In this document: positions 18,213 to 44,115 of the stretch, piece by piece | How the letters are laid out: each line of letters starts with the position of its first letter | How positions within the stretch are numbered: position 1 is the first letter of the stretch | Position numbers and translations under genes: made by a program | Source of the DNA: Candidatus Colinaster equi | GTDB lineage: Bacteria > Bacillota > Clostridia > Lachnospirales > Lachnospiraceae | DNA: 64,000 nt | NCBI GenBank assembly: GCA_018064425.1 | Contig: JAGHVF010000020.1 | Span: 1-64,000 of the forward strand | Direction of reading: 5' to 3' | Notes under the pieces: model-generated | Seen by the model: the letters and a program-made list of their open reading frames with translations, nothing else | Database searches by the model: none | Told to the model about the DNA's origin: nothing

Positions 18213-18749
18213 CTACATTTTGCAATCATCACGCCTTTTGGCCAGTATCACAACATCACGATATTCTCCGTCCAACAATACATTCTTTTCCAAGTATTTC
18301 TCTCTGACAAAACCGCAACTGATAAAGTGTCCAATAGATGCAGCATTATCGGATAAAGCTCTTGCATATACCAACTTAAGCCTCATTACATTGTAAGCAT
18401 AATCAAGAACCATCTGTAAGGCTTCGCTTCCGACACCATGTCCTCTGATGTCTTCCTCACCTAAGAATACGCCGTATTCAGCCTTCATCTCATCTTTGTC
18501 TATATCTCTCAGATACACACTTCCGACAGGTCTGTCATTTTCTTTCATACACACAATGAACTGTACAACATGTCCTGCCTCCACCTGAGTTTTCATCCAA
18601 TTGGTATGTACCTCTGTGGTTAATTCACCTCTGTATATAAAATACCTTTTCACATTGTCCTGTGCACGCCACTTTACAATGAGCGGTGTATCCTCATATG
18701 TAATTGATCTTAAATAAATATGACTTCCCTCAAGTCGTAGCTGTTCCAT
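18213..18749 (-). CDS. GNAT N-acetyltransferase (RimJ/RimL or PseH/FdtC-like); candidate Pse/4-amino-sugar N-acetyltransferase
   Basis: MEQLRLEGSHIYLRSITYEDTPLIVKWR..., EEDIRGHGVGSEALQMVLDYA. Confidence 0.8.
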   Translation of the reverse strand: MEQLRLEGSHIYLRSITYEDTPLIVKWRAQDNVKRYFIYRGELTTEVHTNWMKTQVEAGHVVQFIVCMKENDRPVGSVYLRDIDKDEMKAEYGVFLGEEDIRGHGVGSEALQMVLDYAYNVMRLKLVYARALSDNAASIGHFISCGFVREKYLEKNVLLDGEYRDVVILAKRRDDCKM

Positions 18750-20520
18750 TGTCTTCTCCGATTCTGTAGACATATAGATGCTCATTATTTGTTCCTTCTA
18801 TGACATCACATATATCTACTATAGCGTCCTTTCCATACTTACTCTTATACCACTCTGTAAGCCACGCTATATTCTCTTCTTCACTGATGAAATTGAATTG
18901 CCTCATATCCTCATTGACATCGGCTAAATGCCTCTTTTCACTATCAAGAGGACTGCATGCCATCCATCCTCCGGCAAGCTGCCACCTGCTCTTATCAAGA
19001 GTCGCATCAAACACTCTCTCGGTCATACTTACCGTAGAATAAACATCCACATAAAAATATCCGTCATTTGACGATACATATTCACTCAACTGTCTTGCAA
19101 GAACATTTTTATTATCACGTATCTCCTGTTTCATACATATATTCGTATATTGACCGGAAATATTGATAATCGAAATTCCCATTAACAGCGCAAGCGTTAA
19201 ATACAGATACACTTTTGTACCTTTCACGCATTCATATATAAGTATCGCTAACAGTAACATCACTTCACACATCAACATAGGATGTGTAATTCTGGTTACA
19301 AGTCTGCCCTTCATATACACATATATCCACGGAACGCTTCGCACTATTGCAGCACTTATTACCTTTATAGCAAGCCATTTGTTTTTCATCACTATCGCAA
19401 TAAGGATAAGCGATACGTACAATAACATAATCACGATATTAAACGGCATCAGTTGATTGATATCATCCGCAAAAGGCGAACTGATATCAGCATCTTCCAT
19501 TCGCAATTTTACAAAATCCTTTACATATTGCGACACGATTGTCTTAATGCTCTTGGGTGCGCCCATAGCCTTGCTTGCATTACCCGAATGTACATACATT
19601 GCGATTGCATTCAAAGTATCGGCATCAATCGAATCATCCAAAGCATAATTATAATTGCATAACAGATTATACTTATTAATATCAACATCTATACTTTCAT
19701 AGAATGACACATTCTCGTCATAAGGAGGTATTCCGGTAAAGTCATACACATCTGTTCTTGCATCAAATACTTCTCGATAGTTTTTCCATTCGTCAGACGA
19801 ATATGCAGCAATATCAGCAATATATGTAATCAACACTCCTATTGCTAACACAGCACATATTGACGCATATTTGGCGCATACCTTTTTGACATTGATATGC
19901 ATTCCTTCACCTGCCACACGTTCTTCATCTATCATTCTGCCTATTGCTGCAATCCCCATATACGGAACCATTAATAGGCACATTTCGCTACGAATGTTAA
20001 AAGCTATAAGGACTAATACTATTGCCGGGATGTTTTTACAAAGCATCGCCTTAACATCATATGTCGGTTCATTCAGATATAGCCATACACATGCTGCAGC
20101 GCACATTGTTCCCGCAAGAACCGTGTACTGCATAATACTAAGCTCCCACGCATACAATCCCATCCAGATTAATATCAGTACAACTGCGAGTATTACCTTT
20201 GAATATGCTTTTCTCATTACGGCTATCATTCGGTATGTTATCATATAAAAACACACCATAAATCCCGCTATTTCGAATAAGCCAAACCATGCAATCTTTG
20301 GGAACACTTTATATATCATACTAAGAAGAAGGCTAATCGGATACATCATCTGATTATTATGAGCTTCGGGAATTCCTGTATATATTCCTGCTACAATATC
20401 CTTAATAAGTATGTCATCATTTAGCTCATAGAAAAAATCAAAGCACAAAGCAACAAGCGCCCACAAGATTATTGTCGACGCTGTGGATATTATTAAGTTT
20501 ATCCGTTTTTCGTTTTTCAA
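18730..20520 (-). CDS. Polytopic membrane protein (GT-C-like, unknown)
   Basis: 596 aa, about a dozen hydrophobic stretches; N-terminal FFYELNDDILIKDIVAG. Confidence 0.6.
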   Translation of the reverse strand: MKNEKRINLIISTASTIILWALVALCFDFFYELNDDILIKDIVAGIYTGIPEAHNNQMMYPISLLLSMIYKVFPKIAWFGLFEIAGFMVCFYMITYRMIAVMRKAYSKVILAVVLILIWMGLYAWELSIMQYTVLAGTMCAAACVWLYLNEPTYDVKAMLCKNIPAIVLVLIAFNIRSEMCLLMVPYMGIAAIGRMIDEERVAGEGMHINVKKVCAKYASICAVLAIGVLITYIADIAAYSSDEWKNYREVFDARTDVYDFTGIPPYDENVSFYESIDVDINKYNLLCNYNYALDDSIDADTLNAIAMYVHSGNASKAMGAPKSIKTIVSQYVKDFVKLRMEDADISSPFADDINQLMPFNIVIMLLYVSLILIAIVMKNKWLAIKVISAAIVRSVPWIYVYMKGRLVTRITHPMLMCEVMLLLAILIYECVKGTKVYLYLTLALLMGISIINISGQYTNICMKQEIRDNKNVLARQLSEYVSSNDGYFYVDVYSTVSMTERVFDATLDKSRWQLAGGWMACSPLDSEKRHLADVNEDMRQFNFISEEENIAWLTEWYKSKYGKDAIVDICDVIEGTNNEHLYVYRIGEDNGTATT

Positions 20521-23564: not shown

Positions 23565-24632
23565 TCAGATTAATTCATTCTGCCTATGCAACTCAGGCGC
23601 TTCGTATTTATCCATAAAATCATCGCTTAAGAATATTTTCTCTTTAGCAAAATGTATGCTATCCACAACAGTAAATACAGATATTACTTTATCTACCTCA
23701 ATCCCCGGTATATCATTCATCACTTCCATAGGGAATCGTCCCTTAAGTACAATTGCCTGCGGAAATTCTTTTTCATAATCCAATATATCTCTCGGATGCG
23801 GCTTCATATATACAGTTGCGCCTTGTCCGTACTCTGCAATAATATCCTCAAATATCTGTTTGCGCACATCGAGCTCACATAACGGCTCAGTCAAAATAAG
23901 TATTGCCGGCTTATTCTTACCTGCTTCCTGCATCTGATTGAGCAATCCGGACACATCTTCCATAAAGACGCCCAACAGTACGAGTTTGTCTTCTTTTGAA
24001 ACATTATCAATAAGCTGCTGCCTGTTCACGCACACATAATGTAATGACTTATATTTCAATCTGCTGTCATCATTGATTTCCATATCAAGGCAATATTTGG
24101 AATAGCCGTTCTCAATAAATATCAATCCTTTTTTTGCCATCATGCACTTCAATTCAAAATGTCCTCTGTTGGACCATCTTGCGGAATCACTGTATACAAG
24201 AGTATCCAGACCATCTTCAAGTGCATGGTAATATATCTTCTTATAATTCAAATAATAGCCGATAGGATCCGAGTCGTTAAATACATATATATCTTTGTAC
24301 TGTGTAAAATCAACCGGAACATGCGGTTCCTGAAGCTTACCCAACAACCTTGTATAAACAATCCTCTGCAGCAGATTCAGAATAATATTTCCTCTGTCGG
24401 AATGGTACTTCATAACACGTTTGCTTGAGCTGTCTACTTGTTCATCAAAGAAAAGCACATCTTCAAACAGTCCCGATTCCCTCGCACGCAAATCAAGCGA
24501 TTCAAAATCGTTAGCCATAGTACTCAAAATAAGCGTCGCATTTCCTCTCTGCTTTGGCTCAAGATTCAGTTCCTTAACTACTGCAATATACACATGATAA
24601 TATGTATGGCATACATATATTCTGTCTTTCAT
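23565..24632 (-). CDS. GT52-like glycosyltransferase (sialyltransferase LsgB-type family)
   Basis: MKDRIYVCHTYYHVYIAVVKELN N-terminus characteristic of GT52; YMKPHPRDILDYEKEFP C-terminal motif. Confidence 0.7.
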   Translation of the reverse strand: MKDRIYVCHTYYHVYIAVVKELNLEPKQRGNATLILSTMANDFESLDLRARESGLFEDVLFFDEQVDSSSKRVMKYHSDRGNIILNLLQRIVYTRLLGKLQEPHVPVDFTQYKDIYVFNDSDPIGYYLNYKKIYYHALEDGLDTLVYSDSARWSNRGHFELKCMMAKKGLIFIENGYSKYCLDMEINDDSRLKYKSLHYVCVNRQQLIDNVSKEDKLVLLGVFMEDVSGLLNQMQEAGKNKPAILILTEPLCELDVRKQIFEDIIAEYGQGATVYMKPHPRDILDYEKEFPQAIVLKGRFPMEVMNDIPGIEVDKVISVFTVVDSIHFAKEKIFLSDDFMDKYEAPELHRQNELI

Positions 24633-24649
24633 ATTTTTTTCGAAGAGCA

Positions 24650-25957
24650 CTAGTCTCTCCACTCCCCAACCACTAATTTATGTTCAGTAAATTTCTTTGC
24701 AATACCAATCATCTCTGTTACCGGTACATGTGCAATATTGGCAATATCAATAAGATCATTGCGTCCGTCCGCGTATGACAGAAAATCGCGCGTTACCAAA
24801 ATTGCATCCCAGGCATCTTTTCTGCTGACTGTCGGATATAATCCGCGTTTTCCAAGCTGAGGCTCACATAATACCTGTACCTGATAATATGCATTATGCT
24901 CCAACGCATTAATAGCGTCAGTCATCACATCATATGCTCCTTCAAAGCCGGCCGGTGACACAAAATCCATATTATCGGCTGATGTATGATATTCCGGATA
25001 CTGATCAAATAACGTTCTGCAGAAACATACAAACGGAAGGTCTACTCCCGGAGAACAATACTGTCTCTCATCCGAACCTCTCTCAAGATATGAATACACC
25101 TTGGCATTCTCTCTATACTTAAGCAGATTCAGAATCACCTTATCCGCCAAAGTATCACCATATCTGGACTGCACTACCGAATAATCACCGTCATCGCCCA
25201 CACATGAAATATTGAAACCTGCAACAATGTGGCTCCTCATATAATCAAGATGTGAAGAAATATACGTTATGGAACCGATTGTCTCGGGAATATATATAAA
25301 TCTGTATGAATAATGTCTCTTCTCAAGACTCATAATATATCTTGCAAGGTTAACCGAAAGGGCCGGTCCCGAACATTCATTATTAGCCATCGACGGATGA
25401 CAAATATATGTGGAGATAAATACCTCTTTCTGGCTTTCTCCCGGAATAAGAATCTCACCATAAGTCAGATTACCGTCTATCAATTCGGAATCAATATACA
25501 TATGATACTTGCCGGGCTTAAGTGAACGCTTCATATTCTCAGACATACAGAACGCATATCTCTCACGATAATATGATGTCACATAAGGAATCAAATCGGG
25601 TTGCTCCTCCAGAGTCTCAATATGCTCAAGCAATTCATCCAGCTCAACCCATTCATCAACAGGAGTCGAATATCCCATCACATGCAGATTATTCTCCTTA
25701 AAATCAATTATGTGATTGCCGTTCTCATCTTCGATATATGCTTCGTTAATCACCCATTCCTTAGGAACCGTCCAGTCAAATACCTGTGTACCCGTAGGTA
25801 CATTATGTATCTGCATTGATATACCGGCTTCCTCTACATATTCTTTCAAAATATCGAGAGTTTGGCGTACTCCCTTGCCGGACAGACTTCTGCATATCGG
25901 AAACAAGCGTCCCGCAAGATTGTACATATCCTGTCCGATGTTCTCTTTATCTATCAT
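24650..25957 (-). CDS. DUF4910-type putative zinc peptidase (aminopeptidase-like)
   Basis: MIDKENIGQDMYNLAGRLFPICRSLSGKGVRQTLDIL..., STYICHPSMANNECSGPALSVNLARYI, YHTSADNMDF. Confidence 0.85.
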   Translation of the reverse strand: MIDKENIGQDMYNLAGRLFPICRSLSGKGVRQTLDILKEYVEEAGISMQIHNVPTGTQVFDWTVPKEWVINEAYIEDENGNHIIDFKENNLHVMGYSTPVDEWVELDELLEHIETLEEQPDLIPYVTSYYRERYAFCMSENMKRSLKPGKYHMYIDSELIDGNLTYGEILIPGESQKEVFISTYICHPSMANNECSGPALSVNLARYIMSLEKRHYSYRFIYIPETIGSITYISSHLDYMRSHIVAGFNISCVGDDGDYSVVQSRYGDTLADKVILNLLKYRENAKVYSYLERGSDERQYCSPGVDLPFVCFCRTLFDQYPEYHTSADNMDFVSPAGFEGAYDVMTDAINALEHNAYYQVQVLCEPQLGKRGLYPTVSRKDAWDAILVTRDFLSYADGRNDLIDIANIAHVPVTEMIGIAKKFTEHKLVVGEWRD

Positions 25958-27020
25958 TTTTACCCTTTCCAAACAGCATAATAAAAGCTGTGAATATTCC
26001 ATTCCTTACCAGGTCAACCAATACACCGATGGCAAAAACAACTATTACGCAAAGAATCATATGTATTATCTGCCACCATTGTCCGTTAGCATTCTCGATA
26101 CCGAGCCATGTCTGCCAACAGCCTCTTATCATCACATTTTCATGTAACAAATACACTCCAAAAGTACAGGCTGCAATTCTGTTAATTATCTTACCGCATC
26201 TGTATTCTCTCTCCGGAATATGAATGAACACATAAAACAAGCTCACGGCAGCCCACAATACGGTCACATAATTGTACGCATAAGTCATATCCATATAGTA
26301 TTCAAGATTATTCGTTGCACGTACTATCACGGCACACAACGCACAAATTCCCCATGTAACAAGGACGCCGGCAATATACATAACAAGCGATTTTTTCTTA
26401 TTCGAATATATACCGATTCCATATACTCTGATATATCCTGCCACTAAGAACAAGCAGATAAACCACAAAATATCATATCCGTATTTGTCCCACGGAATAA
26501 GATAAGGATTGATGGATTTTAATCCGCCAAACATTATAAGCAGCGCTACTATTACCGTTTGCAACTGTTTTTTCTCCAGATTCTTAACAGCAGCAACAAG
26601 TATCGGTGAGAGCAGATATAACATCACATACGATGTTGCAAACCAATAATGTTCTTCTTCTATTGGCAGTAATATTGTCAGTATATTGGTAAAATCAAGT
26701 GAACCTAAGTTAACCACCCCGACTGCTCCAAGACAAAGCGGAACAATCCACGAATAGAACAATACTTCTGCCACCAGACGTATCACCTTACCGATATTCC
26801 ATTTGGCATCTATCATAAAATAGCCGCTGATAAGTACATACACATTTACTGCCACATTACATGCCGCATACAGCAACCACCACAAGTGATTAACTATCCC
26901 CATGTCTTCAGACAGTTTGGGAATAGACATCCCCTTTGTCATATAATGCATGGCGATAATCATCATCATAGCCAATATTCTTAAGATTTCAAATTTCGTC
27001 TGTCTGGCTTTCATAAACAT
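25947..27020 (-). CDS. Acyltransferase family 3 (membrane O-acyltransferase)
   Basis: 357 aa; KFEILRILAMMMIIAMHYMTKG, NVYVLISGYFMI. Confidence 0.9.
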   Translation of the reverse strand: MFMKARQTKFEILRILAMMMIIAMHYMTKGMSIPKLSEDMGIVNHLWWLLYAACNVAVNVYVLISGYFMIDAKWNIGKVIRLVAEVLFYSWIVPLCLGAVGVVNLGSLDFTNILTILLPIEEEHYWFATSYVMLYLLSPILVAAVKNLEKKQLQTVIVALLIMFGGLKSINPYLIPWDKYGYDILWFICLFLVAGYIRVYGIGIYSNKKKSLVMYIAGVLVTWGICALCAVIVRATNNLEYYMDMTYAYNYVTVLWAAVSLFYVFIHIPEREYRCGKIINRIAACTFGVYLLHENVMIRGCWQTWLGIENANGQWWQIIHMILCVIVVFAIGVLVDLVRNGIFTAFIMLFGKGKNDR

Positions 27021-29282: not shown

Positions 29283-29990
29283 TTATGCCTTACAGCTTCC
29301 TCCGATTTCATTTAGCAGACGGTACTTAAGCTCTGCAAGTCTCCAGTCTGTCTCATTATCGATATCCTGCACTTCCATTTCATCAAGCACAATATATGTC
29401 ATATCATCATCCTGGTTTATCTTAGGATCGACAAATTTCTCAACATCATAAAAATAGAATTGACCGCAGTCGTGATATATCGGCTCCAAATCCTGGCTAC
29501 GTGTCAATCTGTATTGCGGCTCTCTGTAAGATACGCGTCCATCTTTTGAGATAACACCTCTCTGTGGCGGAAACGAAAACGGAACAACCGGCATAAGTTG
29601 CGCTGCACCGCTTGATTTGAGCTTCTCATATGCTTCCTTTAGTCTTTCGGCTGTTATAAACGGAGCGGTCGGATACAAACACACCATCGTATCAAACTCT
29701 TTGCCGAGCTTTTTATATTCAGCGAGTACCTCTGCAAGCACTTCGTCCGTTGTCGTATGATCATCGGCTGTAGCCGCACTTCGCATAAACGGCACACTTG
29801 CCCCTGCTTCTTTTGCAATCCGGGCTATCGTATCATCATCCGTAGACACCATTACTTCATCAAAAATGCCTGATTTCAAAGCAGCTTCGATAGAATAACA
29901 TATTATCGGTTTGCCACAAAAATCCTTTTTGTTTTTTCCCGGAATGCGCTTGCTTCCGCCTCTTGCTGTGATTATTGCAATATTTCGCAT
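29283..29990 (-). CDS. pseF: Acylneuraminate/pseudaminic-acid cytidylyltransferase
   Basis: MRNIAIITARGGSKRIPGKNKKDFCGKPIICYSIEAAL, VCLYPTAPFITAERLKEAY. Confidence 0.9.
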   Translation of the reverse strand: MRNIAIITARGGSKRIPGKNKKDFCGKPIICYSIEAALKSGIFDEVMVSTDDDTIARIAKEAGASVPFMRSAATADDHTTTDEVLAEVLAEYKKLGKEFDTMVCLYPTAPFITAERLKEAYEKLKSSGAAQLMPVVPFSFPPQRGVISKDGRVSYREPQYRLTRSQDLEPIYHDCGQFYFYDVEKFVDPKINQDDDMTYIVLDEMEVQDIDNETDWRLAELKYRLLNEIGGSCKA

Positions 29991-30024
29991 AGTATCCCAC
30001 TTTCTATAGTCCATAATCTTCTAT

Positions 30025-31148: not shown

Positions 31149-32330
31149 CTATATCAGTTCAAAAGCCTGCAACACACTTTGCGAATCTTCATCCGTAGGT
31201 TCGCTCACAATATAGTATCCGCGTCCCATAAGAGCATGGCCGTTTCCCGCAGGTTCCAAAACATCACCGGGAGCAATATTACATACCCAACGAACAAGTC
31301 TGTCACCAAGTATCTTACTTATATCATCCTTGGTTGGCACTTTTGCGACCTTTCCCGTATAGTCAAAATACCTAATCATAATATTGCGCGTAACAGCAGG
31401 TGTAAAACTATATGCATCACCCATCTGATACTTCATATATTCTGTAGCCACATCAATATCGGTAGCCAACGGCGTAAAAAGATTGTGCAGATTATGTCCC
31501 GACGGTCTGCCGGATGCCTCTATAACGAAAGGGCCGTTTGCCGATCTCAAAATATCAGCATGCATCAAACAATCATCAAGTCCCATTGCCACAACCACTT
31601 TTGTCATATATTCATTAACCTGCGCGCGAAATGCATCATTCATATCAACAGAATAATATGCAACTGCCTGACGCATCGGGAGAGGTGTATTCTCCTTATG
31701 TCGCAACAGTACAAGATGGAATCTGCCATCTATCACAGCACCGTCCACACCATATTCTTCACCATCAATACACTGTTCGAGCACATACTCTTCATCCGTC
31801 ACTTCGTTTAGTGCCGATATAAGCTCGCCCTCGTTATTTACAACATATATGCCGCGACTTCCCGAACCGTATCGTGGCTTCAAAATCATAGGAAATGCAT
31901 ACTTTGTATCTTGATTATTTCCCGGGTTCTCATCACGCACTATCTTGCCGTCTTTAACAAGATACATCACGCAATCACGCAACCTGTCCGACTGCAAGCA
32001 CTTATGAAAAGTGTATTTGTCCGTACAATTAACAGCTGCACCACGACATATTCCTTTAAGTCCCAAAGCATCATTACATGCGCCGATTGTTGTCAAATAT
32101 CTTCCTATCGGCACCGTCTGTATCCAGTTACACCCAAGTTCATTAAGCACGTTTAGAGTCGCCTGCTCATCCGATATATCCGTCACAATCGGAATATCAG
32201 CCGTCTTAAGTCCTGCTGCCGCCGCGTTGCCATCGATAGCAACCACTTCTATTCCCATCTTATGTGCACATTCAATTGTATGTAGAGCTTCTTCACTCGC
32301 TCCGATTATTGCAAGTCTTTTTTTCATCAC
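31149..32330 (-). CDS. ATP-grasp ligase-like protein
   Basis: 393 aa; RLAIIGASEEALHTIECAHKMGIEVVAID, FPMILKPRYGSGSRGIYVV, EEYGVDGAVIDGRFHLV, VIEASGRPSGHNL. Confidence 0.85.
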   Translation of the reverse strand: MMKKRLAIIGASEEALHTIECAHKMGIEVVAIDGNAAAAGLKTADIPIVTDISDEQATLNVLNELGCNWIQTVPIGRYLTTIGACNDALGLKGICRGAAVNCTDKYTFHKCLQSDRLRDCVMYLVKDGKIVRDENPGNNQDTKYAFPMILKPRYGSGSRGIYVVNNEGELISALNEVTDEEYVLEQCIDGEEYGVDGAVIDGRFHLVLLRHKENTPLPMRQAVAYYSVDMNDAFRAQVNEYMTKVVVAMGLDDCLMHADILRSANGPFVIEASGRPSGHNLHNLFTPLATDIDVATEYMKYQMGDAYSFTPAVTRNIMIRYFDYTGKVAKVPTKDDISKILGDRLVRWVCNIAPGDVLEPAGNGHALMGRGYYIVSEPTDEDSQSVLQAFELI

Positions 32331-32400: not shown

Positions 32401-33453
32401 CTATAACGACGCAAGTGCCTGCGCAATCCTTTGTGCGCCCTTACCGTCAGTTATTGTGGCAAGCTTCTTAGCACAATCTTCTCTACGTTTTTTTTCAAAA
32501 ACAAGCGACCGCAATTCACTTACAATCACGCCAAGCGTCTTGTCGCGGTCAGCCGTAACATCGCCGGCGTATATCATGGCGCCGTTTCGACACCAGTAAT
32601 CGGCATCATACCTTTGATTATCAGCCGTAACCGCATATATTGTGGCCAATCGCATAACAGCACACTCTGTAAGCATTGTTCCCGCTGCCGATATGGCAAT
32701 ATCGCATTCACTCATCAATTCAGCCATATTTGATACATTCTTATGAACCGTAACATTAGGCATACTCTCGGCAAGTTCAAGCAATTCGCCTTCATTCTCA
32801 ATATATCTGCCGATTACCACATGCCAGTCACACGTATCAAGCAATTCATCTTGCAGATTCGCAATATTTTTCAATACTCCGTACATCAATCTGCAGATGT
32901 CACCGCCTCCCGCAGCCAGCAATATCTGTCTGCCGTTGCCACCACGCGGATTGTGTTCAAGAAACTGCTCTCTGAGAGGAGCATACATCGGACCTAACAG
33001 AAGTTTTGTTGTATTGATTTTGTCATGTCCGAATACATTTTTATAATCAGCGACATAATTCCAATTATCACAATACCCATTGTAATTAATCAGCAAATCA
33101 ACCGGATATATGTGCTCATGCAAATCATCAATATATGCCACCTTGCACTCTTTACTGATTTCCTCGATATACTCACAGTTCACAAGATAGCTGTCGATTA
33201 ACATGACACAAATGTCATATTTACGTATGATTTCTCGCTGTCTGTCAGATTCGGCATCAGGAGTATTCCAATCAATATTCAGCACAATATGTTCAAAAGA
33301 CTCTCCGGCAAGCAATGCATCTGCGCCATGATCTGACGTAATAAAGATTACATCTTCTCCCAATTTGCGCAAAGCATTTGCAATTGTTATGCATCGCATC
33401 ACATGTCCCGTAGCTATTACATTGTTGGCATCCGCTCTGATTCCTATCATCAC
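32401..33453 (-). CDS. pseG: UDP-2,4-diacetamido-2,4,6-trideoxy-beta-L-altropyranose hydrolase
   Basis: 350 aa; MMIGIRADANNVIATGHVMRCITIANALRKLGEDVIFITSD, VAYIDDLHEHIYPVDLLINYN, AISAAGTMLTECAVM. Confidence 0.92.
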   Translation of the reverse strand: MMIGIRADANNVIATGHVMRCITIANALRKLGEDVIFITSDHGADALLAGESFEHIVLNIDWNTPDAESDRQREIIRKYDICVMLIDSYLVNCEYIEEISKECKVAYIDDLHEHIYPVDLLINYNGYCDNWNYVADYKNVFGHDKINTTKLLLGPMYAPLREQFLEHNPRGGNGRQILLAAGGGDICRLMYGVLKNIANLQDELLDTCDWHVVIGRYIENEGELLELAESMPNVTVHKNVSNMAELMSECDIAISAAGTMLTECAVMRLATIYAVTADNQRYDADYWCRNGAMIYAGDVTADRDKTLGVIVSELRSLVFEKKRREDCAKKLATITDGKGAQRIAQALASL

Positions 33454-33469: not shown

Positions 33470-34522
33470 CTATTCTATCAATTCCCAGGCAAGCGGTGTT
33501 CCAAGCTTCATATCCTTCTTGGCTCTTTTACCGAGAATTTCTTCATAATACATCGTATGCAATCCGTTACCCGGTCGAATAGACCTGACGTTTTCCGGAG
33601 TAAGCAATTCACCTGCCGCTATATCCTTTACGGCAAAAAGCGATCTTGAGCCCTCATGCTCAACAATCTGTGTCTGCGTCAGTCTATATTCGGCACTGCC
33701 TAACGCCTGCTCCATAATGCGAACATCACGTACCATAGCTGCAAATTCTTCAGGTTCCATGGAAAATGACGAATCCGCTCCACCATCCGCTCTCTTTAAC
33801 GTAAGATGTTTCTCTATCATCTTTCCGCCAAGCGCTATCGAGCCTGTCGACACGACAGTTCCCATAGTATGATCCGACAATCCAACAAGACAATCATATT
33901 TTTCAGCCAATGTATTCATTACACGCAGATTGACCTGGTCATACGGCGTCGGATAAGCACTCACACATTTTAAAAGAATAACATCTTCGTTGCCCTCTTC
34001 TTTACATACATTGAGAGCGCGCTCAATATCTTCTTCGTATGCAATACCTGTAGCAAAAATAATAGGCTTATGCAGTCTTGCAATCTTTCTGATTAACGGA
34101 ATATCATTTATCTCATAGCTGGCTACTTTGTAAGCCGGAACATCCATTTGCTCCAAGAAGTCAACGCTGGTAAAATCAAACGGAGAAGAAAAGCACTCAA
34201 GTCCGAGTTTCATTGCCTCTTCTTTAAGTCGCGGTTGCCATTCCCACGGTGTATATGCTTCCTGATACAATTTGTATAATGTGGTACCATCCCAAATCGT
34301 TCCCTGCGTCAATTGAAAGCACGGATCATCGCAATCCACCGTAATTGTGTCAGCCGTATATGTCTGCAATTTAACAGCGTCTGCTCCCGCTTCCGCTGCC
34401 GCATGTATTATTTCTACCGCCCTGTTATAATCGCCGTTATGATTGGCCGAGACTTCCGCAACAATCATACATGGACTGTTTTCGCTTATTTCCTTTTTTC
34501 CTATCCTAATTGTCTTGTTCAT
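33470..34522 (-). CDS. pseI: Pseudaminic acid synthase (NeuB family with C-terminal SAF domain)
   Basis: 350 aa; MIVAEVSANHNGDYNRAVEIIHAAAEAGADAVKLQTYTADTITVD, VGLSDHTMGTVVSTGSIALGGKMIEKHLTL, GNGLHTMYYEEILGKRAKKD. Confidence 0.94.
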   Translation of the reverse strand: MNKTIRIGKKEISENSPCMIVAEVSANHNGDYNRAVEIIHAAAEAGADAVKLQTYTADTITVDCDDPCFQLTQGTIWDGTTLYKLYQEAYTPWEWQPRLKEEAMKLGLECFSSPFDFTSVDFLEQMDVPAYKVASYEINDIPLIRKIARLHKPIIFATGIAYEEDIERALNVCKEEGNEDVILLKCVSAYPTPYDQVNLRVMNTLAEKYDCLVGLSDHTMGTVVSTGSIALGGKMIEKHLTLKRADGGADSSFSMEPEEFAAMVRDVRIMEQALGSAEYRLTQTQIVEHEGSRSLFAVKDIAAGELLTPENVRSIRPGNGLHTMYYEEILGKRAKKDMKLGTPLAWELIE

Positions 34523-35801
34523 AATAATTCCTACTCAAAAACTCATTATTGGTCCATTCTTTACGCGCCGTAAATAATGTTCCGTCCCTACGCTCAACAT
34601 ATACCGCCGGAAAATAATGAATAAACAACGGACTAAGACACATCGTATAACCGCCGGCTGTGTCATATATTATTCTGTCGCCTGCTTTCAGTTCAACATC
34701 ATTTTCAATCGGAAACAGCCTATCGTATTCCATACAGGTTGCACCGCACACCCACTGAATCGGAATCATATCCTGCCTTACAGTTTCCTTCGCATATTCA
34801 ATATGGTGCGGGTAAGAATGTCTTGTCACCTGCGGATTCAGATTAACACGACTTCCGTCAGTTACCACGTATCTAATATCTCTGATATCTTTCACATCAA
34901 TTACACTTGTCTCAAAAGATATAGCTCTCGAAATAAGTGACACACCCGGTTCAACAATAAGCTTCGTCTTTTCCGGATAAAAGAATTTCCTAAGTTCATC
35001 ACAAATTGCCGGCATATAGTCAGCATATGACGGCATATCGGAACGTCCGCCGAAATATCCGCCACCCATATCAACATATTCAAGCGATAAGCTGTACTCT
35101 TTTGCCACCTTAACAGCCAACGCTGCCAGAGCCGCAAAAACTGCAGGTCTGCGTGATTTGGTGGATGTATGAAGATGCAATCCCGCAATCTTCGCATTCG
35201 GAATCGCTTTTATTCTATCAATCACCTGTTCCAAATCGCCGTTTTCATAACAATATCCGAATCTTCCGCCATCTTCTTCTAAAAGTTCCTCATCAGGACA
35301 CATTGCAGACATATCCGCATTTACACGCAAACCGACTTTATATGTGTTACCCGGATTATTCTTACACAATTCCTCAAGCCATTCGGGTTCATAGCTTGAA
35401 TCCAGATTGACGTATCCGCCGTTTTCCAATACTTTGGCAAAAACCGATTTGTCTTTAATCGGACCGTTATATATTATTCTGTTATCTTTATAGCCAAGTA
35501 TTTCGGATAATTCATACTCCTGTTCGGATACTACTTCCGCAAAAAAACCATGCTTCTTTAGATAGGTAAGCAGCCATGGCAATGAATTGGTCTTCACCGA
35601 ATATCCCATTACATAATTGCCCCAGCTTTTCTCAAGCGAACGTCTGAGCAATTCTATATCATATACCAGATTGGCCTCATTAATCATATAGTAAGGTGTC
35701 TTCAATTCTTGCATTTTGCTCCATTCTCCGTTTATGGCTAACATCAACTCATCTGTCACATTAACATTACCGCGTTGCATACCATTGTCCACATATAGCA
35801 A
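34506..35801 (-). CDS. PLP-dependent group-IV (DapDC/ODC fold III) decarboxylase-like protein
   Basis: 431 aa; YSVKTN PLP-Lys motif, GLHLHTSTKSR, VDMGGGYFGG, VEPGVSLISRA, CGATCMEYDRL, DTAGGYTMCLS. Confidence 0.88.
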   Translation of the reverse strand: MLYVDNGMQRGNVNVTDELMLAINGEWSKMQELKTPYYMINEANLVYDIELLRRSLEKSWGNYVMGYSVKTNSLPWLLTYLKKHGFFAEVVSEQEYELSEILGYKDNRIIYNGPIKDKSVFAKVLENGGYVNLDSSYEPEWLEELCKNNPGNTYKVGLRVNADMSAMCPDEELLEEDGGRFGYCYENGDLEQVIDRIKAIPNAKIAGLHLHTSTKSRRPAVFAALAALAVKVAKEYSLSLEYVDMGGGYFGGRSDMPSYADYMPAICDELRKFFYPEKTKLIVEPGVSLISRAISFETSVIDVKDIRDIRYVVTDGSRVNLNPQVTRHSYPHHIEYAKETVRQDMIPIQWVCGATCMEYDRLFPIENDVELKAGDRIIYDTAGGYTMCLSPLFIHYFPAVYVERRDGTLFTARKEWTNNEFLSRNYYEQDN

Positions 35802-35813
35802 ATGACATGTGTG

Positions 35814-37007
35814 TCATTTATGGTAATACTCAACAAGTTTCTTCACCGCATTAATCACATCTTCCTGGTCTGCATCTGTCATTCCGTAATAGAGCGGCAA
35901 TGACAACATTTCTTCATACAGACTTTCCGCATTAGGGCACAAGCCTCTCTTATATCCGAGTGACTCATAATGAGGGAAATAATATACAGGTATATAATGT
36001 ACGTTACAACATATTCCTTCAGCACCCATCGCATCAAAAAACTGACGTCTGTTAACATTCAATACCTTTGTATTCAGTCTGAGAATATAAAGGTGTCTGC
36101 AAGTATCACTTTCCGGAATTTCCTCTTGTATGATGATTCCGTCGACATTTGCAAATGCAGCATTATATCTGTCTACCAATTGCTTACGTCTTTCCTTAAA
36201 CATCTGCAATTTATCAAGCTGGCTGATAAGCAATCCCGCCTGTACATCAGTCATTCTGTAATTGTATCCCAGTTCAACCTGTTCGTAATACCACGGTCCA
36301 TCGGATTCATTCTTCATAAGATTGGTGTTTCTGGTAATACCATGTGAACGAAACAGTGCCAGACGCTCATATAACGCATCGTCATTAGTCATTACCGCTC
36401 CACCCTCTGCTGCCGTAACAGTCTTCACCGGATGAAATGAAAAAGTCGTCATATCGGCAATTGAGCCAACAGATTGTCCTTTGTATAAAGTACCTATACT
36501 ATGTGCTCCGTCTTCGATAAGAATCAAATTGTGCTTATGTGCAATCTCACGCAGTCTGTCCAATTCAACTGCCTGACCGGTATAATCAACTGCCACTATT
36601 GCCTTTGTTTTATCAGTAATATGTGCTTCAACCGAATCCGGATCGATATTGTAAGTCTTAGGATTAATATCTGCAAAGACGGGAATCGCACCACAATACA
36701 ACGCACAATTGGCACTCGCTGCAAAAGTAATAGGAGTTGTAATCACTTCATCTCCCGGCTTAACTCCTGCCGCCATCGCTGCAATATGTAATGCAGCCGT
36801 ACCATTACTGCATACTACCGCGTGCTTTGCGCCCGTTATCTTACACAACTTAGCTTCCAATTCCTCAATCTTCGGACCACATGTCAAATAATCAGACTTA
36901 AGTACATCCAGTACCGCATTATAATCTGCTTCATCCAAATATTGATGACCATAATATATTTTCTTATCTCTTATCGGGGTTCCGCCCTCTATTGCCGGTT
37001 TATTCAT
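35814..37007 (-). CDS. pseC: UDP-4-amino-4,6-dideoxy-N-acetyl-beta-L-altrosamine transaminase
   Basis: 397 aa; MNKPAIEGGTPIRDKKIYYGHQYLDEADYNAVLDVLKSDYLTCGPKIEELEAKLCKITGAKHAVVCSNGTAALHIA, FSFHPVKTVTAAEGG. Confidence 0.92.
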   Translation of the reverse strand: MNKPAIEGGTPIRDKKIYYGHQYLDEADYNAVLDVLKSDYLTCGPKIEELEAKLCKITGAKHAVVCSNGTAALHIAAMAAGVKPGDEVITTPITFAASANCALYCGAIPVFADINPKTYNIDPDSVEAHITDKTKAIVAVDYTGQAVELDRLREIAHKHNLILIEDGAHSIGTLYKGQSVGSIADMTTFSFHPVKTVTAAEGGAVMTNDDALYERLALFRSHGITRNTNLMKNESDGPWYYEQVELGYNYRMTDVQAGLLISQLDKLQMFKERRKQLVDRYNAAFANVDGIIIQEEIPESDTCRHLYILRLNTKVLNVNRRQFFDAMGAEGICCNVHYIPVYYFPHYESLGYKRGLCPNAESLYEEMLSLPLYYGMTDADQEDVINAVKKLVEYYHK

Positions 37008-38975: not shown

Positions 38976-38998
38976 TTATATTCTCATACAACAAAATC

Positions 38999-39028
38999 CA
39001 CTAACCACCGAAAACGGTAGCCAGTGGA
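38999..39028 (-). terminator. Probable intrinsic terminator after pseB
   Basis: CCACTGGCTACCGTTTTCGGTGGTTAGTGG on minus strand followed by ATTTTGTTG. Confidence 0.55.
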
Positions 39029-39076
39029 TTCACAAAATCTGTCTTATTTGGTAGTCTCGATATACAATCGAAAAAA

Positions 39077-40075
39077 CTATTTCTCAAGTTCAATTGTTCC
39101 AAGTAATTCTTTTATCTCGTCAACACTCAACCACTCAGTATTATTACCTGATGTATAACAGAAGCCATCTTCTACCTTCTTACCACCCGGCAATGGCTGC
39201 TGACGTCCGTTCCATACCATCTGAGGATATACAATGAAATGCTTATCATATTCATATGTAGTCATGGAATCCTCGGTTGTTACCATTATCTCATGAAGCT
39301 TCTCGCCTTCACGGATACCTACCTCCGGCATCTTGCAACCCGGCAACATAGCCTGTGCCAAATCAGTTATCTTAAATGACGGAATCTTGCTTATAAAAGT
39401 CTCACCGCCGTTTGCATCGGCAAGAGCCTTAATCACGAGCTCAACACCCTGCTCCAAGCTAATCCAGAATCTTGTCATTCTATAATCTGTTATTGGTAGC
39501 TCATTGCCGCCATTCTTAATAATATTATTAAAAAACGGAATAACACTTCCTCGGCTTCCCGCAACATTACCGTATCTTACAATTGAAAAATTGATATCTT
39601 TCTCACCTGCATATGCATTGGCAGCTATAAACAATTTATCCGAAACAAGCTTTGTTCCACCGTAAAGATTGACAGGGTTAACCGCTTTATCTGTAGACAA
39701 TGCAACAACCTTACGAACCGAACCCGAATCAAGTGCTGCATCTATTACATTCATAGCACCATGAATATTTGTCTTAATCGCCTCATTGGGATTATATTCA
39801 CAAGCCGGTACCTGCTTTAGAGCTGCTGCATGCACTACATAATCAACACCTTCAAAAGCTCTTGTGAGTCTCTCTTTATCTCTGACATCACCGATGAAAA
39901 ATCTAAGCTTATCAGCATATTCCTTCATCTCATTCTGCATAATAAACTGCTTAAATTCATCACGTGAATAAATGATAATCTTCTTCGGATTATAGTGAGT
40001 CAGAACATATTTGGTAAAGCACTTACCGAACGAACCGGTTCCGCCCGTAATCAAAATTGTCTTGTTGTTTAACAT
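39077..40075 (-). CDS. pseB: UDP-N-acetylglucosamine 4,6-dehydratase (inverting)
   Basis: 332 aa; MLNNKTILITGGTGSFGKCFTKYVLTHYNPKKIIIYSRDEFKQF, HAAALKQVPACEYNPNEAIKTN, ALSTDKAVNPVNLYGGTKLVSDKLF. Confidence 0.95.
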   Translation of the reverse strand: MLNNKTILITGGTGSFGKCFTKYVLTHYNPKKIIIYSRDEFKQFIMQNEMKEYADKLRFFIGDVRDKERLTRAFEGVDYVVHAAALKQVPACEYNPNEAIKTNIHGAMNVIDAALDSGSVRKVVALSTDKAVNPVNLYGGTKLVSDKLFIAANAYAGEKDINFSIVRYGNVAGSRGSVIPFFNNIIKNGGNELPITDYRMTRFWISLEQGVELVIKALADANGGETFISKIPSFKITDLAQAMLPGCKMPEVGIREGEKLHEIMVTTEDSMTTYEYDKHFIVYPQMVWNGRQQPLPGGKKVEDGFCYTSGNNTEWLSVDEIKELLGTIELEK

Positions 40076-40147: not shown

Positions 40148-40236
40148 TCTGTTTGCCCTTTACAGGGTTCAAACATTTTGCCCTCACAAGGCTCGTACAT
40201 TTGCCCTTTATAAGGCTCAAATACGGCATTCAACAT
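40144..40236 (-). CDS. Candidate micro-ORF, 30 aa with three heptapeptide repeats (MLNAVFEPYKGQMYEPCEGKMFEPCKGQTD)
   Basis: Manual translation of minus strand: ATG TTG AAT GCC GTA TTT GAG CCT TAT AAA GGG CAA ATG TAC GAG CCT TGT GAG GGC AAA ATG TTT GAA CCC TGT AAA GGG CAA ACA GAT TGA. Starts 4 nt after the ACP stop codon. Confidence 0.45.
   Translation of the reverse strand: MLNAVFEPYKGQMYEPCEGKMFEPCKGQTD
40152..40224. repeat. Three imperfect tandem repeats of 24-25 bp (TTTGCCCTTTACAGGGTTCAAACAT / TTTGCCCTCACAAGGCTCGTACAT / TTTGCCCTTTATAAGGCTCAAATAC)
   Basis: Direct reading of 40152-40224; in phase with the micro-ORF. Confidence 0.85.
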
Positions 40237-40240: not shown

Positions 40241-40471
40241 TTACATGCATCTTTCAATCAGCTTCCATATAAGTTCAGCCGAATTGAAATTGTCCGGTAC
40301 AATATCTGCAACATCAATCTCTATATTGTACTTATCCTGAATCTCACTGACTATTGTTATCACGTCAAAAGAATCAAGTACATCTGCATCCATAAGTTCA
40401 TCTTCTGCTTCGAAATCCACATCCGGTCTTATTTCACTTAACAATTGTAATAACTCTTCCATAATTCCCAC
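40241..40471 (-). CDS. Acyl/peptidyl carrier protein
   Basis: 76 aa; ADVLDSFDVITIVSEIQDKYNIEIDVADI (phosphopantetheine Ser in DSFD). Confidence 0.88.
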   Translation of the reverse strand: MGIMEELLQLLSEIRPDVDFEAEDELMDADVLDSFDVITIVSEIQDKYNIEIDVADIVPDNFNSAELIWKLIERCM

Positions 40472-41989
40472 CTACCTATTCTCAATATAATCCTTTTTTA
40501 GTTTCACTCTGTCTATCTTACCGTTTTTATTAAAAGGCAATTGCTCATAATGTACATAAATGTTCGGCCACATATATTTGGGTAATTTTTTACCCAATCC
40601 ATCCACGATCTGCTTCTTACACTCTTGTTGTGCCTGATAGAAACATACTATTTTCCCTTTTTCCTCATCAAAAACGCAACAGGCTACAGTAACATCCTCT
40701 ATAGCATTAAGTGCTGTCTCTATTTCACCAAGCTCAATTCTATGTCCCATATGCTTAATCTGGGAATCCTTTCTCGATGCAAAGACAATATTGCCGTCAT
40801 TGTCATAATATCCCAAATCCCCGGTTGCATACATGATACCCGGATATGCACTCACGCCTATATCTTTTACAAAAGCCTCACTTGTTTTCTGCTCATTATT
40901 ATAATAGCCGCAAGCCACACACGTTCCGCTGACCGCTATTTCTCCGATAACATCCGCATTCTCCGGTCTGATAATATGCCCCGACTCGTCGCGCAGATAT
41001 ACTCGCGTGTTCTTAAACGGTTTACCTGCCGGTATCTTCTCTTCCGGACTAAAATGTCTGTCAATGACATAGTATGTACAATTGCAGGTTATCTCTGTAG
41101 GTCCGTATAAATTGACATATCTGACATTCTCAATGTTTTCCATCCAATAATTGAGCGATTTAACCGGCATCACCTCACCGGAAAACATTACATTATTAAG
41201 ACATTTTGGTATGTATTTATCCAATGCTTTAAAATCAGATACAATTCTAAGAGCCGACACAGCCCAAATAAGCGTATCAATATTATGCTCATCAATATAT
41301 TCAAGCAGCATCACCGGAGACATAAACAGTTTCTTGGGAATTATCTGTACAGTTCCGCCTACATACAACGCATTATATATATCCTTAACCGATACGTCAA
41401 AATCAAACGGAGCCTGATTACCCCATACTGTTGATTCAGTAAAATTGAATGCCTCTTCAAATGCTTCCAACAAATCAATTACACTTCGATGCGCTACCGT
41501 AACACCCTTAGGTACTCCTGTCGAGCCGGATGTGAAAATAGTATAAAGCGGATCAATATCTATCATATTGTCACGAATCTTCGATAGGAGTAATCGATCC
41601 GGGCTAACATCCAGATACTCATCTACCGACACTGCTCCAAAACTGCCGTCACACACATCTCTTGCATCCAATATCGCCATCGGTTGCAATGTATCCAATA
41701 TCAACTGTACTCGTTCAATCGGCATTGTAGCATCAATCGGCACATAAAAATTGCCACTATATACAACGCCTAAAAATGTATATATCGAGCGAACATTACG
41801 ATCAATCAATACTGCAACAGGCATATTGGTCTGCTTAATTGCACGCGCAATACCTGTACCTATTCTACGCGCATAATCTGCATACTGAGCATACGTTATA
41901 CTGACACATGTGTCAGCTAAAGCTGTTTTCTCAGGACATCTTTGTTCATTTTTTTCCAAATAGTCTAATACATTGTTAATCATGCACAC
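40472..41989 (-). CDS. AMP-forming amino-acid adenylating enzyme (DltA / NRPS A-domain-like, stand-alone)
   Basis: 505 aa; YTIFTSGSTGVPKGVTVAHRS, NLYGPTEITCNCTYY, YATGDLGYYDNDGNIVFASRKDSQIKHMGHRIELGEIE, FNKNGKIDRVKLK. Confidence 0.93.
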   Translation of the reverse strand: MCMINNVLDYLEKNEQRCPEKTALADTCVSITYAQYADYARRIGTGIARAIKQTNMPVAVLIDRNVRSIYTFLGVVYSGNFYVPIDATMPIERVQLILDTLQPMAILDARDVCDGSFGAVSVDEYLDVSPDRLLLSKIRDNMIDIDPLYTIFTSGSTGVPKGVTVAHRSVIDLLEAFEEAFNFTESTVWGNQAPFDFDVSVKDIYNALYVGGTVQIIPKKLFMSPVMLLEYIDEHNIDTLIWAVSALRIVSDFKALDKYIPKCLNNVMFSGEVMPVKSLNYWMENIENVRYVNLYGPTEITCNCTYYVIDRHFSPEEKIPAGKPFKNTRVYLRDESGHIIRPENADVIGEIAVSGTCVACGYYNNEQKTSEAFVKDIGVSAYPGIMYATGDLGYYDNDGNIVFASRKDSQIKHMGHRIELGEIETALNAIEDVTVACCVFDEEKGKIVCFYQAQQECKKQIVDGLGKKLPKYMWPNIYVHYEQLPFNKNGKIDRVKLKKDYIENR

Positions 41990-42003
41990 GTTACCTTACT
42001 AAT

Positions 42004-42879
42004 CTATTCCATTCTGTCACGATTCTTAAGGAATCCCATCTGATACGCGTCATCCCTTGCAGCATCCCAGTCAATAGAATAATTCTCAAATTCATATACA
42101 TTGTGTCCGCCGTTATGCAACAAATCATCACTTAGCGCATCATATGCACCGGGCAAATCAATAACAGCCATATCCATGCCGCGAAATGTTGTACGATTAC
42201 AGCAACCTTTTCTTACAAAAAAGTCAGTTGTCTGCGACGGAGTTAGTGTTACTTCCAGTCTACGCACATACATAGAATACACTCTTGTCTCTCTGCATCC
42301 GTCAATATCTGTATATTCACCCATAAAAAATTTCTGATATCTATATGGGACATTAAGTGATTGTTCCACATAATGTTTGAAAGTCATCCCCTGTGTCGCG
42401 TTCACATTAAGGCACAATTCTTTTCCACCGTTATGATGAAGATAAGCAAACGGCGAATTACTTCCCCACGAATCCTGATTATCCATATTTACAAGTCTAT
42501 CAGCATCCTTGCCCCACACCATAAGGGAGTACAAGGGATGTTTTGTCCTTGCAAAGTCATTTCTCGTATTCAAAATGTAATTGTTAAGAGAACCCACTTG
42601 TCCCTGGGTAGTCTTTATATCAAACGCAACACCTTTGCAAAAATCCCAATTATATACAGGAAAAAGAAGCGTACCTTCCGGTCCGACAACCTCCTGTAAC
42701 ACATCAATCAAAGTATTTAGGAAACGTTCTCTATCATCGCGTCCCTTAAATCCCAGCTCTTTCATAGCCGTCAGAACAACACCGGTAACATCGGAACTGA
42801 CATATACAATGTCATTCTTTTTCAATCCGATATCGCCAAGTGCTTTTCTAAAATCAGCAAAATACGTCGACTCTTTCAT
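42004..42879 (-). CDS. AAC(3)-family (aminoglycoside N3'-acetyltransferase-like) N-acyltransferase
   Basis: 291 aa; LGDIGLKKNDIVYVSSDVTG, GPEGTLLFPVYNWDFCKG, ARTKHPLYSLMVWGKDAD, SPFAYLHHNGGKELCLNVNATQGMTFKHYVEQ. Confidence 0.83.
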   Translation of the reverse strand: MKESTYFADFRKALGDIGLKKNDIVYVSSDVTGVVLTAMKELGFKGRDDRERFLNTLIDVLQEVVGPEGTLLFPVYNWDFCKGVAFDIKTTQGQVGSLNNYILNTRNDFARTKHPLYSLMVWGKDADRLVNMDNQDSWGSNSPFAYLHHNGGKELCLNVNATQGMTFKHYVEQSLNVPYRYQKFFMGEYTDIDGCRETRVYSMYVRRLEVTLTPSQTTDFFVRKGCCNRTTFRGMDMAVIDLPGAYDALSDDLLHNGGHNVYEFENYSIDWDAARDDAYQMGFLKNRDRME

Positions 42880-42903
42880 ACTATTGTATTCCTTTGTTAC
42901 GCA

Positions 42904-43917
42904 CTACTCTGTAGGCTTTGTAATAAACTTATTCTCAGATAGAGAATATTTGTTGCCCATAAAGAGCTTATGCTTAACAACCCACCAGCCGGGAATCCAG
43001 ATTCGTTGCTTCATGGCAGGCGATACCGAACCAATCATCCAGCAGTTCTTGTCACAATGGCATACCTGCTCACGTACTTTCTTAGCCTGTTCTCCTGTCC
43101 ATATCTCATCCCAGGTCTGTTCATGCAGATTACCCATAGACATTTTTTCCGTACTACCGTTACAAGGCAAAACATTACCGTACGGATCCAAAAAGAATCC
43201 GTTAGTACCCATCTCACACGGCAATAGTCTTGGATTGCCATAGATATAATTAATCAAGCCATGATTAAAATACGCTCTTCCCCATTTCTTAGGGCTCTTG
43301 CTGCTTAAAAGTTCATTAATAAGCTCTTCAAAAGCTTGTGACACCATATATTTATCATCAATCTTATTGTCTGTCTTGCGAAAATAGAAGCTGTTATGAA
43401 GTGTTGCCGTAGCAAATTCCATATTAAGGTCATTGGCCAAATGATACAACGGCACCAAATCCTTACAATTCATATCCTGCACGGTCATACCGAATCCAAC
43501 ATCTTCATGGCCCATCTCAACCAATTTCTGCAAAGTGCCGTATCCTCGATTGAATCCGTCAGGCAAGCCTCTTATTGCATTATTTGTCTCTTCAAGTCCC
43601 TCTATTGAAATACGAATACCAATCTTGGGGAAACGCTCGCACAATTCAATTATTCTGTCAGTAAAATATCCATTGGTTGAAATTACAATACGCGGAGTCT
43701 TTTTATACAAAAGCTCAACAATATCTCCTATATCCTTACGTATGAAAGTCTCTCCGCCGGTAATATTGGTAAATGCCATCTCCGGTAGCTTCTCAAGCGT
43801 TGCCAGATCTATCTCTTCTTCCGGCATAGTCGGGTCTTTGAAACAATCACACATATTACAATGTGCATTGCATCTGTATGTTATTATTATCGATCCATGT
43901 AGATTATTCTTAGCCAT
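42904..43917 (-). CDS. Radical SAM protein with SPASM-like C-terminal Cys cluster
   Basis: CNAHCNMCDC (CxxxCxxC), FTNITGGETFIRKDIGDIV, ISTNGYFTD, C-terminal CEMGTNGFFLDPYGNVLPCNGS...CHCDKNC. Confidence 0.92.
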   Translation of the reverse strand: MAKNNLHGSIIITYRCNAHCNMCDCFKDPTMPEEEIDLATLEKLPEMAFTNITGGETFIRKDIGDIVELLYKKTPRIVISTNGYFTDRIIELCERFPKIGIRISIEGLEETNNAIRGLPDGFNRGYGTLQKLVEMGHEDVGFGMTVQDMNCKDLVPLYHLANDLNMEFATATLHNSFYFRKTDNKIDDKYMVSQAFEELINELLSSKSPKKWGRAYFNHGLINYIYGNPRLLPCEMGTNGFFLDPYGNVLPCNGSTEKMSMGNLHEQTWDEIWTGEQAKKVREQVCHCDKNCWMIGSVSPAMKQRIWIPGWWVVKHKLFMGNKYSLSENKFITKPTE

Positions 43918-44000: not shown

Positions 44001-44047
44001 CCATAATTAACCTCTTTTTCCATAACAGATAGATATATTACCAAAAA

Positions 44048-44079
44048 CCCCTTTCATCGGACAAATCCGATGAAAGGGG
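44048..44079 (-). terminator. Intrinsic terminator after protease A
   Basis: CCCCTTTCATCGGATTTGTCCGATGAAAGGGG then TTTTTGG on minus strand. Confidence 0.9.
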
Positions 44080-44115
44080 TATACCCACTCAATCAAGCAA
44101 AAACATAATCTCTGC

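Follow-up and report, generated by a model that had tools for sequence, protein, structure and literature searches.

In Campylobacter jejuni, cytidine monophosphate-pseudaminic acid (CMP-Pse) with a 2,3-di-O-methylglyceroyl group on N5 was reported by Logan et al. 2009, as cited in Hitchen et al. 2010 (PMC3068675), and the latter study found that Cj1295 is required for N5 di-O-methylglyceroyl pseudaminic acid (Pse) and proposed an N5 deacetylation. The DUF4910 structure paper of Das et al. 2014 (PMC4000134) places this protein family in modified-carbohydrate operons with N-acetyltransferases and an acyl carrier protein (ACP). In the vicenistatin pathway, VinO decarboxylates only after VinN loading, i.e. 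after thioester formation (PMC11284099). We analyzed 64,000 nucleotides of Candidatus Colinaster equi (contig JAGHVF010000020.1, positions 1 to 64,000), hereafter the window, in which a stand-alone adenylation domain (A-domain), an ACP and an AAC(3)-fold N-acyltransferase are encoded next to pseB. The Pse locus holds both a DUF4910 protein and an N-acyltransferase, the combination by which we recognized a Cj1295-type system; we take Cj1295 itself to belong to the DUF4910 family, Campylobacter being named as a carrier in the structure paper. We conclude that the module is real and conserved, and that it is probably a new variant of the Cj1295-type acyl modification of Pse. On balance, we think it probable that the A-domain, ACP and AAC(3)-fold protein (40241-42879) act with DUF4910 (24650-26002) to exchange the N-acyl group of Pse. 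The genes concerned are the following.

40241..40462, minus strand: acyl carrier protein, 73 aa, Ser31 in a DS motif (PF00550 26.0 bits, cut-off 20.8)
40472..41983, minus strand: stand-alone adenylation enzyme, 503 aa, proposed amino-acid loader of the ACP (PF00501 184.9 bits)
42004..42879, minus strand: AAC(3)-fold N-acyltransferase, 291 aa, proposed to transfer the acyl group carried by the ACP (PF02522 86.9 bits, cut-off 25)
24650..26002, minus strand: DUF4910/DUF2172/HTH_47 peptidase-like protein of the Cj1295 family, proposed N-deacetylase (PF16254 335.8 bits)

The acyltransferase, its carrier genes and DUF4910

The AAC(3)-like protein falls within the Antibiotic_NAT/AAC(3) superfamily, scoring above the PF02522 gathering threshold. 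Its AlphaFold2 model had a predicted local distance difference test score (pLDDT) of 91, and its best PDB matches were AAC(3)-IIIb, AAC(3)-Xa, YokD, BA2930 and FrbF with E values of about 1e-16 (Foldseek E 1.2e-16 against AAC(3)-IIIb). Residues S29, R111, P115, S118, H169 and E172 were unchanged across 17 relatives, and alignment with 7lap placed H169 and E172 at the His-x-x-Glu motif of AAC(3) enzymes, so the catalytic pair, whose loss would have spoken against the original prediction, is retained. A role in antibiotic resistance was rejected, since the protein scored 43 bits against the NCBIfam AAC_3 equivalog for aminoglycoside resistance, far under its cut-off of 270. In the DUF4910 protein, whose true start probably lies ~22 codons inside the open reading frame, H202, E240, D311 and H339 were unchanged in 17 relatives and may form a hydrolytic centre.

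We searched 61 related genomes; kinship among them means that the p values below overstate independence. Strong AAC(3)-like relatives were found in 14 of the 20 genomes of the genus (counting its own) and also in G032 and G048, which belong to two further genera of the same family. DUF4910 was present in all 15 genomes with an AAC(3)-like gene as against 1 of the 46 without one (Fisher test, 2e-13; 4e-4 within the genus), and the sole exception, G006, holds only pieces of DUF4910 on short contigs. Pse genes accompanied the AAC(3)-like gene throughout, with PseB above cut-off in 14 of 15 genomes and pseC, pseI, pseG and pseF in the remaining one (G010). One of the gene orders in the sister maps was pseB-pseC-DUF4910-AAC(3)-A-domain-ACP-decarboxylase-pseI-pseG. 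Where a contig end did not cut the AAC(3) locus, genomes of the genus had both an ACP gene and a ligase gene, either A-domain or ATP-grasp, only a few genes away, except in L023, where there is only an ACP-sized gap. In another family of the phylum (L127), DUF4910-AAC(3)-A-domain-ACP lies beside pse-type genes. In Mucispirillum (L002), one distant relative reached by a contig scan, AAC(3) and DUF4910 are fused in a single protein near two ACPs, an A-domain, KASIII and SDR, adjoining flagellin genes.

The clustering of the AAC(3), A-domain and ACP genes exceeds chance, which was not demonstrated for the radical SAM gene that precedes them, and as judged from these comparisons we take the A-domain, ACP and AAC(3)-like enzyme to form a genuine functional module. 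Thus the co-occurrence that the original prediction expected among relatives was borne out for AAC(3), A-domain, ACP and pse genes, and its central proposal, an ACP-dependent acylation of an amino sugar in the pse locus, is supported by this co-occurrence, the AAC(3) fold and the kept catalytic residues.

Of the canonical Pse pathway, the window encodes PseB, PseC, PseG, PseI and PseF, all above their cut-offs, along with further sugar genes.

39077..40075, minus strand: pseB, UDP-GlcNAc 4,6-dehydratase (inverting) (TIGR03589 533 bits, cut-off 408)
35814..37007, minus strand: pseC aminotransferase (TIGR03588 478 bits, cut-off 424)
33470..34522, minus strand: pseI, Pse synthase (TIGR03586 478 bits, cut-off 340)
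32401..33453, minus strand: pseG, UDP-sugar hydrolase (TIGR03590 175 bits, cut-off 154)
29283..30014, minus strand: pseF, CMP-Pse cytidylyltransferase (TIGR03584 279 bits, cut-off 206)
23565..24662, minus strand: GT52/polysialyltransferase-like glycosyltransferase, candidate Pse transferase (PF07922 50 bits, PF07388 38 bits)
20531-21664: wecE, in the same cluster (635 bits)
18213..18785, minus strand: PseH-like GNAT, candidate N4/N7 acetyltransferase (TIGR03585 68 bits, under the cut-off of 93)

The GT52-type transferase is kept beside DUF4910 or pseF in sister loci. The PseH-like GNATs of the relatives all scored under 93, and their scores were alike whether or not the pse cluster carries the module, which argues against the AAC(3)-like enzyme being a replacement for PseH. 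The genome encodes four flagellins; the modified glycan could be flagellar or capsular, and the exporter and transferase genes of the window suggest a polysaccharide.

Acyl supply and the adenylation pocket

The genes that would supply the acyl group differ among loci. Type 1 loci have an A-domain and ACP only (L024, L026, L031; L022 and L023 have an ACP-sized gap between AAC(3) and A-domain). Type 2 loci add a decarboxylase nearest BtrK (L030, L032, L033, L034; 129 bits for L034). Type 3 loci (L025, L029, L136, and G005 as L028 plus L135) combine the ACP with a PGM1-related pre-ATP-grasp ligase and with a decarboxylase that lies much closer to BtrK (312 bits for L029, the next match scoring 176); a BtrK-type enzyme was found in L025, L028, L029 and L136. 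Type 4 loci have HMGL-like and cyclase-like genes (L035, L036). In L125, which also has DUF4910, an FkbH protein, a known route to glyceryl-ACP, is encoded beside AAC(3). DUF4910 is directly followed by a formyltransferase in L128 (8412-10539) and L129 (9412-11561), two pse-type clusters with no AAC(3), and this pair is a candidate N-formyl nonulosonic acid pathway. Since DUF4910 occurs both beside a formyltransferase and, with AAC(3), beside FkbH, it appears to stay constant while the acyl step varies.

The core motifs of the window A-domain are present, catalytic Lys included, and Asp30-Ser31 of the ACP was unchanged in 15 ACPs from related loci; one AcpS-type transferase is encoded in the genome. 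We derived the ten-residue A-domain pocket codes by hand. The specificity prediction proposed in the original prediction gave the code DVKIMSLCNK, in which Asp235 argues for an amino acid substrate. Lys239 would suit a second carboxylate of the substrate, and a Lys at this position occurs in some Glu codes. The code was identical in three intact homologues from sister pse loci (L030, L033, L034), all type 2, and in the readable parts of the split A-domain gene of L032, also type 2, at an overall identity to these homologues of only about 50-56%. Type 1 A-domains carry DNLFLCLDVK or DNLFLCLDAK. With regard to a possible VinN-type activation of the distal carboxyl of Asp or 3-methylaspartate, the window A-domain has a pocket with Asp235 and Lys239 in common with the decarboxylase-paired homologues. 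Because the window A-domain shares its pocket code with A-domains paired with BtrK-like decarboxylases, an acidic amino acid or its decarboxylated omega-amino acid is suggested. The substrate is probably identical with the acid decarboxylated on the ACP in type 2 loci, in analogy to VinO, which acts only after VinN loading.

Similar A-domains also occur in other settings. Variants close to DVKIMSLCNK were found in MBOAT operons of other genera. A Dlt-like operon (L176:4846-10515) combines an A-domain (DVKVMSICNK) with a BtrK-like decarboxylase, an ACP and an MBOAT protein, and looks like a system for polymer aminoacylation with a decarboxylated acidic amino acid. A second Dlt-like A-domain type with the code DAKCAGLGMK or one close to it (L170, L171, L173, L174, L175, L177) is found throughout the family and order. 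In most cases an ACP and a long protein of ~530 aa accompany it, and MBOAT was present where tested (L175). Two large multi-A-domain open reading frames of ~4009 and ~3016 aa in the window's own genome (G000:C71 and G000:C21) are nonribosomal-peptide-synthetase-like.

The Pse cluster holds two further genes.

34506..35801, minus strand: LysA-fold pyridoxal phosphate (PLP) decarboxylase, FslC-like, doubtful member, sole decarboxylase candidate in the cluster (nearest PDB entry N-citrylornithine decarboxylase, 127 bits; BtrK 72 bits)
31149-32330: ATP-grasp protein beside pseI and pseG

The FslC-like enzyme, encoded before pseI, was at first favoured as the BtrK of the window and then doubted: it is 57% identical to an enzyme of G017 in a pse cluster without AAC(3) or DUF4910, and only 20-25% identical to the ACP-linked decarboxylases. 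G017 has two members of its clade and G023 has one, with nonulosonate-type or ATP-grasp genes nearby, and no AAC(3)/DUF4910 module was found in these genomes. The decarboxylase and the ATP-grasp protein may serve a pathway of their own that decorates nonulosonic acids with an amino acid.

The radical SAM gene and the transcription unit

The original prediction had described four tightly packed genes, from a radical SAM gene to the ACP gene, and all four were confirmed on the minus strand. With ATG starts the intergenic gaps are 24, 20 and 9 nt, the last two being shorter if GTG starts are used.

42904..43917, minus strand: radical SAM/SPASM protein, first gene of the unit, judged to lie outside the acylation module (PF04055 and PF13186, 43.5 and 42.4 bits, both above cut-off)
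44047..44080, minus strand (44080-44047): intrinsic terminator upstream of the radical SAM gene, 15-bp stem and T tail
38994..39031, minus strand (39031-38994): intrinsic terminator after pseB, 17-bp stem and T tail

With a strong terminator at each end, the likely unit extends from the radical SAM gene to pseB, in the probable order radical SAM, AAC(3)-like, A-domain, ACP, pseB. These terminators appear to be better unit boundaries than the promoter calls. The promoter predicted at 43995 matches 10 of 12 positions plus TG and stays a candidate only, because the region contains no more promoter-like sites than shuffled sequences (25 as against 22.2 +/- 6.3); the separate pseB promoter (40147-40119) fared better, with 11 of 12 positions plus TG, and ranks in the top two. 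A 24-bp tandem repeat of 2.9 copies (40152-40221) follows the ACP stop and precedes the pseB start. Upstream of the cassette, 44116-48798 encodes a 1560-aa protein with a subtilisin-like protease region and, by eye, repeated beta-rich segments.

The radical SAM protein is 84-94% identical in most congeners, and in seven of them its gene lies directly before pseB; only in the window does it adjoin the AAC(3) gene. It is present without AAC(3)/DUF4910 in G016, G017, G022, G026 and G067. In G007, G012, G013, G019 and G032 it is separated from the module by over 20 kb or by a contig boundary. Its co-occurrence with AAC(3) within the genus was not significant (p=0.20). Between the window and the sister pse loci, the radical SAM protein and pseB are 87-91% and 88-90% identical, as against 36-46% for AAC(3) and 41-54% for the A-domain. 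The simplest reading would be an insertion of AAC(3)-A-domain-ACP upstream of pseB, directly behind a conserved radical SAM gene. The radical SAM protein had been predicted to modify the ACP-bound acyl group; its uncoupling from the module in relatives leaves that part of the original prediction unsupported, and distribution, distance and divergence together speak against it as a pathway member and make it very probably a bystander.

Proposed acyl exchange, alternatives and known systems

From gene content, families, folds, conserved residues, co-occurrence and the identical pocket code, we infer the following chemical steps, their order, the N5 site and the kind of amino acid. The A-domain would adenylate an amino acid and load it onto holo-ACP. 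In sister loci a BtrK-type enzyme would then decarboxylate the aminoacyl-ACP, a step that in this genome would be missing or performed by the FslC-like enzyme at 34506. DUF4910 would strip the N5-acetyl group from Pse, from CMP-Pse or from a precursor; the nitrogen thus freed would receive the acyl group of the ACP through the AAC(3)-fold enzyme, and PseF and the GT52-type transferase would put the modified Pse into a surface glycan. N5 of Pse derives from GlcNAc and arrives acetylated, so any other acyl group at N5 needs a deacetylation, which explains the pairing of DUF4910 with an acyltransferase. The original prediction had named Pse or its 4-amino precursor as the acceptor; an amino sugar in a Pse locus stands, and the 4-amino precursor is less likely, since DUF4910, which had been missed, points to replacement of the N5 acetyl. 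More tentatively, and with rather less confidence than for the exchange itself, Pse-producing relatives may have a swappable toolkit by which the N-acetyl group of Pse is replaced by omega-amino acids (gamma-aminobutyric acid, beta-alanine) or amino acids; it would use antibiotic-type aminoacyl-ACP chemistry like that of butirosin BtrI/J/K or VinN/L/O, and its AAC(3)-fold enzyme would accept acyl-ACP.

Several observations weigh against the proposed exchange. The module and pseB are on separate contigs in G007, G009, G012, G013, G014 and G019, and in the window DUF4910 lies ~16 kb from the AAC(3) gene. No BtrK-type decarboxylase was found in the genome's own assembly, which is 83.7% complete. 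WecE could make a second 4-amino sugar as an alternative acceptor. According to Das et al. 2014 (PMC4000134), the DUF4910 residue pattern matches no known peptidase site, and transacylation was weighed beside deacylation. In C. jejuni, the N-acetyltransferase gene Cj1296/7 was out of frame in both variants studied, yet acylated Pse was made when Cj1295 was on (PMC3068675), so another transferase works in that strain.

The alternatives differ in which genes they set aside. If the module acylated the 4-amino group (N7 of Pse or the WecE sugar) instead of or beside PseH, DUF4910 would do something else; free amines are indeed AAC(3) acceptors, wecE is in the same cluster, and the PseH-like GNAT, being under cut-off (68 vs 93 bits), could itself serve the WecE sugar. 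We regard this as unlikely in view of the tight AAC(3)-DUF4910 link and fusion, the same-score PseH-like GNATs with and without the module, and the C. jejuni precedent, which is N5. Alternatively, DUF4910 may itself be the transacylase, with the AAC(3)-fold protein acting on another amine or acyl-ACP. The transacylation considered by Das et al. 2014 (PMC4000134) and the acylated Pse made while Cj1296/7 is off speak for it, but in other families DUF4910 lies beside an unrelated formyltransferase, so a separate transferase seems needed, and we give this reading little credence.

Two other explanations seem more remote. The A-domain and ACP are related to DltA and DltC (289 and 31 bits), and relatives hold similar A-domains with an ACP and MBOAT, so the pair might activate an amino acid destined for a polymer of the wall or outside the cell, with AAC(3) an accidental neighbour. 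This is very unlikely, as the cassette lacks MBOAT, both proteins miss their NCBIfam cut-offs (DltA 288.9 vs 476, DltC 31.3 vs 68), and A-domains with an identical code are encoded alongside AAC(3) and pse genes in sister loci. A role for the radical SAM enzyme in the same pathway, acting either on the acyl group held by the ACP or on the sugar, seems least likely of all: its strand, its 24-nt gap, the shared terminator-bounded unit, its place before pseB in seven congeners and the structural matches of its model (pLDDT 79.5) to many radical SAM enzymes, the sugar enzyme BlsE among them, are offset by its occurrence without or far from the module, by the within-genus p value and by its high identity next to that of AAC(3).

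If the proposed N5 exchange is correct, one constant deacylase (DUF4910) and interchangeable acyl suppliers would explain N-acyl variation on a surface sugar visible to host and phages, and the DUF4910 family, its chemistry unproven since the 2014 structure, would gain a testable reaction. An aminoglycoside-resistance fold would be using carrier-protein substrates, and butirosin-type chemistry would occur in glycans. Should the toolkit exist, it would yield zwitterionic sialic-acid-like sugars whose acyl group differs between close relatives by exchange of supply genes. For experimenters, the consequence is that DUF4910 belongs in the gene set to be studied and the radical SAM gene does not.

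Cj1296/7 is presumably AAC(3)-like. The C. jejuni Cj1295 locus, known for the flagellin sugar Pse5-di-O-methylglyceroyl-7Ac (PMC3068675), resembles the window in its DUF4910 protein within a pse locus, which in C. jejuni is required for an N5 acyl group other than acetyl, and in the gene annotated as N-acetyltransferase (Cj1296/7) that adjoins Cj1295; it differs in that its acyl group comes from glyceric acid, whereas the window A-domain predicts an amino acid, and in that Cj1296/7 was off in the strains studied. The neighbourhoods of CA_C2195 (DUF4910) described by Das et al. 2014 (PMC4000134) likewise include aminosugar N-acetyltransferases, an ACP and nonulosonic acid genes, with fusions noted; the printed table lists an N-acetyltransferase and a HAD partner, which we read as FkbH-type, and the text consulted does not name the A-domain, BtrK/ATP-grasp or formyltransferase versions. 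Literature searches for BtrJ/BtrK, and for AAC(3) enzymes paired with an ACP in Pse clusters, returned nothing usable. Compared with the DltA/DltC D-alanyl-ACP pair, the window shares a stand-alone A-domain and ACP that score against the Dlt families, but these are under the NCBIfam cut-offs and have a soluble AAC(3)-fold transferase in place of the MBOAT partner DltB. Butirosin BtrI/BtrJ/BtrK is matched by the sister loci L025, L028/L135, L029 and L136, whose ACP and pre-ATP-grasp ligase come with a decarboxylase closest to BtrK (312 bits, L029), whereas the window has an A-domain for the ATP-grasp ligase, no BtrK-type enzyme, and Pse as the predicted acceptor. The VinN/VinL/VinO set of vicenistatin (PMC11284099) offers the likeness of a stand-alone A-domain with an ACP and a PLP decarboxylase, but unlike the window it supplies a polyketide synthase.

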